Shown piece by piece: positions 1 through 13,732 of a stretch of 34,476 nt of DNA. Source of the stretch: Rhodospirillales bacterium (GTDB lineage: Bacteria; Pseudomonadota; Alphaproteobacteria; BOG-932; Roseiterribacteraceae); NCBI GenBank assembly GCA_003165335.1, contig PLTD01000139.1, positions 1 through 34,476 of the forward strand. Reading direction: 5' to 3'. The notes beneath the pieces were generated by a model. It was given only the letters and a program-made list of their open reading frames with translations. It did no database searches and had not been told where the DNA came from. The first letter of the stretch is position 1, and each line of letters begins with the position of its first letter. Made by a program: the position numbers and the translations under genes.

Positions 1-325
1 CGCTAGACGAAAAGTCGCCGCTTGGGATGACGACTTCTTACAAAGCTTGATCGCAAAGTGAGCCCTTCGCCCGATTCCCCTGCCTCGACCTTACCGCTCC
101 GTGCAGTGAGAGAGCGGTACTGAAAGAAATGGGAGAGAGGAACTGAGGAGCATCGCTACTACTGCAGAACTCTAGCGACTGTCTTTCTTGGATCTTCCCC
201 CTCATGCGACGCGGCGGTCGAGCGCTTCAGCCATCGTGCCGAACGGCGGTTATGCGCCTTTGGTTGCATCCCACCGGATGGCGCGTTAGAGCAAACATGT
301 CTTTGCGCTTCGAGGCCATTCAACC
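1..325. other. Upstream region of glmU, no gene seen
   Basis: No convincing coding region on either strand. An 8-bp-arm hairpin (TACCGCTC at 92-99, GAGCGGTA at 112-119) is visible but has no following T run, so it is not a clear terminator. A purine-rich stretch runs from about 121 to 150. A short hairpin (CATCC/GGATG) lies near 267-280. I see no sigma-70 promoter I would trust; the glmU promoter probably lies here by position only. Confidence 0.4.
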
Positions 326-12685: not shown

Positions 12686-13447
12686 GTGAGCGATCAATTC
12701 GACCCAGTAATAATTCTTGTCGAGCCGCAGCTGGGCGAGAATATTGGCGCGGCCGCGCGGGCGATGCTCAATTGTGGGTTGAAGCGGATGCGCATCGTGC
12801 GACCGCGCGATGGGTGGCCTAATGCGCGCGCCTTGGCGGCAGCTTCGGGCGCCGACGCGGTTATCGAGGCGGCGGAAATCTTCGAGAGCACTTCAGCTGC
12901 GATTGCCGATCTGAATTACGTGCTGGCAACGACGGCCCGGCAGCGGGACATGGTCAAGACCATACTGACTCCGGAAGTGGCGGCCGAGGAACTTCATGCC
13001 CGCGCTTCGGCTCTGCAACGTACGGGAATTTTGTTCGGACCAGAACGCACAGGCTTGATGAACGACGATATTCCCCTGGCGGATGCGGTCGTCACGATCC
13101 CGGTCAATCCGGCATTTTCATCTTTGAATCTTGCGCAGGGCGTGTTGCTGATCGGCTATTGCTGGTGGCGCATGCAGGTCCAGAGCGAAGGTCGGCATCT
13201 TGAAATCGGTGGCAACCGTCCGGCGACAAAACAGGAGATGGTCAACCTGTTCGTCCGCCTGGAAGAGGCACTGGAGGAGGGCGGGTTCTATACAACAGAT
13301 CAGCAACGCCCGACGATGGTGCGCAATATGCGCAATCTGCTTCAACGTGCGGAAATGACCGAGCAGGAGGTCCGAACATTCCACGGTGTCATTGTGGCGT
13401 TGAACGGAACCTCGGGCAGCGCCAAAGAAAAACGCCGCCCCCGTTAG
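12686..13447 (+). CDS. trmJ: tRNA 2'-O-methyltransferase TrmJ (SpoU/TrmH family)
   Basis: Probably methylates the ribose at position 32 of tRNA anticodon loops using SAM. The SPOUT-fold marks are present: NIGAAARAMLNCG at about residues 15-27, FGPERTGL (motif 2) and NPAFSSLNLAQGVLL (motif 3), which form the knotted SAM site. At 253 aa it fits TrmJ rather than shorter TrmL. The start is GTG at 12686, 11 bases after cysS, so gltX-cysS-trmJ is a translation-related operon. The stop codon lies inside a hairpin (13432-13457) that serves as intrinsic terminator for the opposite strand. Confidence 0.9.
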   Translation: MSDQFDPVIILVEPQLGENIGAAARAMLNCGLKRMRIVRPRDGWPNARALAAASGADAVIEAAEIFESTSAAIADLNYVLATTARQRDMVKTILTPEVAAEELHARASALQRTGILFGPERTGLMNDDIPLADAVVTIPVNPAFSSLNLAQGVLLIGYCWWRMQVQSEGRHLEIGGNRPATKQEMVNLFVRLEEALEEGGFYTTDQQRPTMVRNMRNLLQRAEMTEQEVRTFHGVIVALNGTSGSAKEKRRPR

Positions 13448-13457
13448 GGGACGGCGT
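13424..13457 (-). terminator. Intrinsic terminator for the antisense micro-gene, overlapping the end of trmJ
   Basis: Read on the minus strand: ACGCCG-T-CCCC, loop TAAC, GGGG-G-CGGCGT, then TTTTTCTTT. That is ten GC-rich pairs with one internal mismatch and a real U tract. On the plus strand the same hairpin has no T run, so the structure is made for minus-strand transcription. The only minus-strand gene candidate nearby is the 25-codon ORF at 13524-13601. Confidence 0.85.
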
Positions 13458-13465
13458 CCAGTGTG

Positions 13466-13512
13466 TTCGGTGCCGCTGCGGCTCATCGGCCGTTTGCGGT
13501 CGCGTCACCGAA
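13466..13512 (-). ncRNA. Structured RNA stretch downstream of the micro-ORF (candidate)
   Basis: On the minus strand, TTCGGTG and CACCGAA close a 47-base element containing inner pairs such as GCCGC/GCGGC (13472-13482). It lies between the micro-ORF stop and its terminator. It could be the body of a small RNA or just a stable 3' UTR. The call rests on base pairing only. Confidence 0.35.
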
Positions 13513-13523
13513 TCAGGAATGCC

Positions 13524-13601
13524 TCAGACGCAAGCTCCGAAGATGATCGAGTCGTTGGTAAATTCCCGCGGCGAGACGCGTTCACCAAAACAGTTAGACA
13601 T
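13524..13601 (-). CDS. Micro-ORF (25 aa) with perfect Shine-Dalgarno, antisense between trmJ and rpsD
   Basis: The minus strand carries AAAGGAGGTGG (13606-13616), a near-perfect anti-16S match, seven bases before ATG at 13601. The frame runs 25 codons to TGA. The peptide begins MSNCFGER, ends IIFGACV, has two Cys, and is rich in small and hydrophobic residues at its C-terminus. It has no signal peptide and no membrane helix. About 70 bases after the stop comes an intrinsic terminator, with a structured stretch closed by TTCGGTG/CACCGAA (13466-13512) in between. Upstream, a hairpin with 8-bp arms (13631-13638 and 13657-13664) sits in the leader. No clear -35/-10 was found. I do not recognise the peptide; it could be a functional small protein, a leader peptide or the coding part of a dual-function RNA. 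Confidence 0.65.
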   Translation of the reverse strand: MSNCFGERVSPREFTNDSIIFGACV

Positions 13602-13630
13602 CAGACCACCTCCTTTCGCTGTTGAAACAA

Positions 13631-13664
13631 GAGCCGAGCGAATCGTTCGAATATCTCTCGGCTC
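13631..13664 (-). promoter_or_regulatory. Leader hairpin of the micro-ORF
   Basis: Perfect 8-bp arms (GAGCCGAG at 13631-13638, CTCGGCTC at 13657-13664) around an 18-base loop that itself contains CGAA/TTCG. It lies 30 bases before the micro-ORF start on the minus strand. On the plus strand it lies upstream of the rpsD promoter, so an operator role is also possible. Confidence 0.4.
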
Positions 13665-13704
13665 GCGGAATATAGGGCCAAATTCATATACCGCCACAGC
13701 TTAT

Positions 13705-13732
13705 TTGACAGGCGGTACGCCAGCCGTATAAA
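13705..13732 (+). promoter_or_regulatory. Sigma-70-type promoter of rpsD
   Basis: A consensus -35 TTGACA at 13705-13710, a 16-base spacer and TATAAA at 13727-13732. It is the best promoter match in the window and fits a highly expressed ribosomal protein gene. Transcription would start near 13740, giving a leader of roughly 115 bases. Confidence 0.8.

Follow-up and report, generated by a model that had tools for sequence, protein, structure and literature searches.

The described family that comes closest to the element analysed here is CC2171 (RF01867), which is filed by Rfam as an sRNA. It reportedly first came out of a 2008 survey of Caulobacter sRNAs by Landt and others, and it is named after an annotated ORF. 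An RF01867 RNA of Mesorhizobium huakuii has been tabulated with RNA-seq coordinates (PMC5596092), so experimental evidence of transcription exists for a relative. This table and the Rfam 15 paper were the only relevant papers returned by a literature search with sequence strings and with RF01867/CC2171. A parallel of another kind is rnTrpL/peTrpL of S. meliloti, which is, like the element, both a small terminated RNA and a translated one (PMC10117765). The two differ in that rnTrpL is leaderless and belongs to trp attenuation, whereas the element has an extended Shine-Dalgarno (SD) and is without a downstream operon or a conserved peptide. SEP1, a non-annotated sORF of 23 aa, has been described in S. 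meliloti as well. It is conserved in Rhizobiaceae, gave a Western blot signal and has the highest translation efficiency among the novel sORFs (PMC10117765).

The element was encountered in the window, a stretch of 34,476 nucleotides from a Rhodospirillales bacterium (contig PLTD01000139.1), where it forms a unit of about 230 bases on the minus strand (13674-13428) in the intergenic region between trmJ and rpsD. Its features, with positions in the window, are as follows.

13669..13674, minus strand: promoter-like -10 box TATATT, 44-45 nt from CAACA, also present in the congeners G002 and G001
13631..13664, minus strand: 5' leader hairpin with an 8-bp stem, GAGCCGAG/CTCGGCTC, lineage-specific
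13620..13624, minus strand: CAACA motif 5' of the SD, common throughout the family (column frequencies, 90 sequences)
13604..13617, minus strand: extended SD GAAAGGAGGTGGTC, giving a 15-bp pairing with the 16S tail when the next base is included
13524..13601, minus strand: 25-codon ORF MSNCFGERVSPREFTNDSIIFGACV with stop TGA; start, Ser2 and 25-codon length are the same in G002 and G001
13583..13592, minus strand: 5' arm of the long-range helix P1, TGTTTTGGTG, codons 4-7, partner 13472-13462
13539..13548, minus strand: anti-SD-like segment GATCATCTTC within the ORF, for which pairing with the SD is possible (-12.8 kcal/mol)
13506..13512, minus strand: TTCGGTG directly after the stop, an alternative partner for the 3' arm of P1
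13462..13472, minus strand: 3' arm of P1, CACCGAACACA
13428..13459, minus strand: Rho-independent terminator with a 13-bp GC-rich stem (13459-13430) and a T5 run (13432-13428)

The ORF runs on the minus strand from ATG (13601-13599) to TGA (13526-13524), and its peptide carries Cys4 and Cys24. For the TATATT box, no clear -35 box was found in the window. The leader hairpin also folds in both congeners, with two compensatory pairs, and the fold of the whole transcript beats 199 of 200 shuffles (z -2.9). An earlier note on this DNA had proposed a complete minus-strand transcription unit, and this description holds: the well-spaced SD, the 25-codon ORF with two Cys, the structured 3' stretch and the GC-rich hairpin with its T5 run are all present on that strand. 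Moreover, the -10 box, 5' hairpin, SD, ORF and terminator recur together in both congeners, and elements built in the same way occur across the class. The word antisense, which the earlier note had also used, is apt for the terminator, which overlaps the last codons of trmJ including its stop (13445-13447, plus strand); the rest of the unit is intergenic. Sphingomonadales, the group to which the note had turned for relatives, is unlikely to be the order of this genome, whose own order has five genomes in the collection searched. Next to the unit, at 13705-13732 on the plus strand, TTGACA-N16-TATAAA is a likely rpsD promoter, and it points away from the TATATT box of the element.

Among the Rfam families, RF01867 alone matches the whole element. 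Its gathering threshold is 75 bits, and the window lies below it with 27.4 bits (E 6e-4 in 501 nt), as do G002 (34.5 bits) and G001 (23.4 bits). Six of the scanned loci, from other lineages, reach 76-91 bits, and the remaining loci score 23-70. Under the curated cut-off the window thus falls outside the family, yet it is very probably homologous to it through a chain of intermediate sequences. In the 5' block of RF01867, CAAC..GAAAGGAGGUGAUCC.GUGUCU, the window aligns at high posterior probability (37.6 bits with profile R1), and the GC-rich terminal terminator hairpin is present. For the helix that closes before the terminator, the window allows 10 bp with a competing partner, and the wider set supports it well. 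CC2171 and the element have in common the 5' block (CAACA, the extended SD, the start codon and TCT), the terminator and, in the wider set, the helix from codon 3 to the pre-terminator region. The window departs from CC2171 in the sequence of P1, in its inner hairpins and in the added 5' leader hairpin. The Rfam families Xoo2, BcKCsr2 and suhB were also considered and rejected, as their matches lie far under threshold and overlap mostly with the terminator.

By DNA search, the unit was recovered in both congeners and as fragments in many further genera. These fragments turned out to belong to complete elements with one common layout: CAAC(A), then GAAAGGAGGTG[AG]TC, a start codon two bases on, TCT and a short ORF that a terminator follows. 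Of 385 alphaproteobacterial genomes, 73 contain the motif AAAGGAGGTGRTCYRATGTCT with at most one mismatch, in almost all cases as a single copy; the reversed pattern occurs in none. A 43-nt sequence profile detects the element in 96 of the 385 at 24 bits or more, which is a lower bound because the filters are strict. Profile matches of 16.8 bits that were limited to positions 11-27 were left out, since from the matched positions they were judged to be the 16S-tail complement. At least 120 exact stretches were found in Sphingomonadales, Rhodobacterales, Rhizobiales, Caulobacterales, Rhodospirillales and other orders. The named genomes with the element include Sphingomonas, Novosphingobium, Bosea, Bradyrhizobium, Methylobacterium, Brevundimonas, Paracoccus, Roseovarius and Azospirillum. 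Outside the class, the element was not found in a sample of 299 genomes of the phylum; two profile matches there fall where an ordinary 2-oxoacid oxidoreductase-like gene begins and were rejected. All these counts run over related sequences, whose kinship was treated through redundancy filtering or spanning trees only. The relatedness also bears on the P1 and start/stop counts given below; several unrelated clades nonetheless agree. Taken as a whole, the unit is almost certainly a real, conserved RNA gene.

The gene neighbourhoods differ between lineages and are common only within lineages, so that rpsD and trmJ are to be seen as accidental company; the rpsD setting is confined to the window's own group. 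Some individual occurrences deserve mention. One genome (G016) carries two copies (C1:2922048, minus strand, and C1:805113, plus strand) instead of the usual one. In the genus of another (G169, locus L027), the gene for 4.5S RNA and a dnaX-like frame (DNA polymerase III tau/gamma) follow directly downstream, at +184 to +1525 from the element. No match was obtained in the phage records searched. In a virus contig (L041; IMG/VR IMGVR_UViG_3300047160_002485, 208-227), the 20-mer AAAGGAGGTGGTCTGATGTC is present without mismatch, and a frame of 9 codons comes after it.

The 15-bp hybrid between the SD and the 16S tail reaches -26.6 kcal/mol. Among the 56 long ORFs in the window, the best value is -11.3 kcal/mol, and AAAGGAGGTGRTC has a single exact match in the window, namely the SD of the unit. 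The claim that it is the strongest SD of the window is thereby borne out. The 16S tail used here, GGATCACCTCCTTTCT, was taken from a genome of the same family (G003); assembly G000 gave no match for it. When 58 genomes were searched for any extended SD that stands 0-6 bases before ATG or GTG (AAAGGAGGTGRTCN{0,6}RTG), all 13 places found were the element, including two with an odd spacer base that proved to be members on reading. A functional role of such a long SD is plausible, since start-site choice in Staphylococcus aureus has been reported to be governed by extended SD pairing (PMC13009471).

In Rhizobiaceae (loci L241-L325), the SD takes the variant form AAAGGAAGGTGATCC with an extra A (GGAAGG). 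The exact complement, CCTTCC, is located 4-7 nt past the stop in 19 of 21 non-redundant Rhizobiaceae copies versus 2 of 167 elsewhere, a contrast for which Fisher's p overstates independence because the match is confined to one lineage. Pairing of the SD with an internal anti-SD segment was also compared with shuffled sequences. The enrichment across the class is weak (26% of members with p<=0.05, mean z -1.0), and the window's own sequence has none. Internal anti-SD pairing was therefore dropped as a universal feature.

In the long-range helix P1, the bases from codon 3 onward (codons 3-8) pair throughout the family with those just before the terminator. The mean duplex energy is -25.0 kcal/mol for cognate arms and -19.0 kcal/mol for arms swapped between members, and the complementarity has its maximum at codon 3 (0.56 vs 0.18). 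Compensating pairs are seen, for example, in CAUUGUC/GACAAUG, AUGGUU/GACCAU and GUGAU/AUCAC. The P1 of the window, with 10 bp, a bulge and -8.0 kcal/mol, is weaker than that of other lineages. A consensus fold of the three species favours the post-stop TTCGGTG over codons 4-7 as partner of the P1 3' arm, and two helices may thus compete for this arm in the window. A hairpin with a CA[AG][CT] loop was found in 27 of 157 non-redundant members, at +54..61 from the start and nowhere else, while other hairpin loop classes occur in at most three members each. In Rhizobiales and SAR11-like genomes this hairpin is part of the ORF, and in the Rhodobacter type it comes directly behind the stop codon, which identifies it as a feature of the RNA. 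The window does not contain this loop.

Within the reading frame, the two ends behave differently from the middle. In the one-mismatch search, the first base of the start codon changed 22 times, 18 times to G, four times to T and never to C; the start codon is thus ATG, GTG or TTG and never CTG. All ten changes in codon 2 (TCN, Ser) are at the third base. The stop is at codon 18 in 35 of 37 frames of the Sphingomonad type, where stops in the other two reading frames are scattered, and its position is fixed in 18 of 19 frames of the Rhodobacter type. According to minimum spanning trees for six clades, TAA, TGA and TAG were interchanged 26 times without loss. The same trees count 59 synonymous and 186 non-synonymous changes, and in none of the six clades was a significant synonymous excess over the neutral expectation found that would point to purifying selection on the peptide; a pairwise version was also run. 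With 14-25 codons, such ratios are of limited power, and they are distorted by RNA structure. Between clades, the peptides have nothing in common past Met-Ser. The peptide of the window has no match in Pfam or NCBIfam, and its homology alone extends no further than congener G002; two weak matches (E 0.19 and E 0.29) were discarded as chance. Judging from these substitution patterns, it is quite probable that translation matters and that the peptide sequence does not. By the same comparison, the Rfam family CC2171 is probably translated and not simply non-coding. As far as the searched papers show, the conserved frame and the 16S complement are new for CC2171.

The question is then what the unit does. 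It could be an efficient small mRNA whose 25-aa peptide acts as a protein, as do those of its relatives, which would suit the optimal SD and the conserved start and stop. SEP1 gives this some further weight. The copies of the element in Rhizobiaceae encode 21-26 aa, mostly 23-24, and many of the peptides are acidic, so SEP1 may be the element; its length, range and translation strength are suggestive of the S. meliloti copy, while its reported pI of 4.18 is matched exactly by none of the 23-aa element copies read. A functional small protein is nevertheless improbable in view of the peptides, which have diverged beyond Met-Ser and show no synonymous excess in any of the six clades. Furthermore, the first 20 codons of the window and G002 are identical in DNA even at silent sites, which points to a constraint on the RNA. 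A purely base-pairing sRNA, in which the SD-like segment is a seed for C-rich mRNA sites or 16S rRNA and the ORF is incidental, would account for the unpaired 5' segment being the most conserved stretch. It would also fit a stand-alone transcript with a terminator and the filing of CC2171 as an sRNA. This reading is unlikely as well, because starts change only to other starts, codon 2 varies only at its wobble base and the stops interchange at a fixed codon, all of which argues that the ORF is not incidental.

Two further explanations connect the unit with its neighbours. A short ORF with hairpins and a terminator behind it is what a leader peptide or attenuator of the adjoining gene would look like. 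In the window, however, the next gene downstream is trmJ on the opposite strand, the unit is singly terminated, and across the class the neighbours vary and no conserved downstream gene in the same orientation was found; this explanation is very improbable. A cis-antisense regulator of trmJ or rpsD is hardly credible: the terminator does overlap trmJ at its end, and the promoter regions of the unit and of rpsD face one another, but the rpsD neighbourhood is restricted to the window's own group. Among the functions suggested in the earlier note, a new small protein is consequently not favoured, as there is no synonymous excess past codon 2 in any clade, and a leader peptide is not supported in view of the unit's own terminator, the orientation of the downstream gene and the variable neighbours. 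The third suggestion, a dual-function RNA, comes closest, in that the start, Ser2 and stop are conserved and the RNA structure likewise. The link to translation that the note proposed survives through the 15-nt complement of the 16S tail and not through rpsD or trmJ. The note had regarded a reading frame that is not conserved, or substitutions that do not respect codons, as refuting its proposal; the result is divided, as the ends of the frame are conserved and the internal substitutions ignore codons.

The reading that we favour, with a probability of roughly 0.6, is that of a stand-alone, structured and translated RNA, about 230 nt long and distantly related to CC2171, in which the peptide is not selected and the fold is gated by ribosomes. 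A frame that is kept at both ends and free inside is what would be expected if translation itself is the signal, and a ribosome-gated RNA is favoured for that reason. Gated folding as the actual working principle, for which the basis is geometry and complementarity, is tentative and stands at a little under even odds. A 30S subunit at the start site would cover the 5' arm of P1, which begins at nt +7 in the family and at about +10 in the window. As this arm lies within the footprint of a start-codon ribosome, initiation and P1 should be mutually exclusive. The fixed stop would determine how far the ribosome reaches into the inner structure, and a ribosome running to the stop would open that structure, including the segments that can sequester the SD. 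The RNA would thus be open when loaded with ribosomes and folded when unloaded. Candidate outputs of this switch are RNA stability, pairing with other RNAs and the binding of idle 30S subunits. In the last case, a 30S held by the 15-bp SD pairing could turn the RNA into a sink for idle subunits.

An extension of the ribosome-gated reading, which is speculative and rather doubtful, would make the element an alphaproteobacterial sensor of free ribosomes, in which loading versus fold-back switches the output. With its start maximally complementary to 16S rRNA, the RNA may be loaded before all others or keep its ribosome longest. The act and the extent of translation would then be conserved and the peptide would not.

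The combination of an RNA present in many orders of one class, a ribosome site that matches best in its genome and a frame selected at its ends only is unusual. Even without gating, the CC2171 family is much larger than curated, and GAAAGGAGGTGRTCNNNTGTCN together with a terminator offers a signature for its annotation. If gating is true, regulation by the element would rest on a direct reading of how many ribosomes are available.
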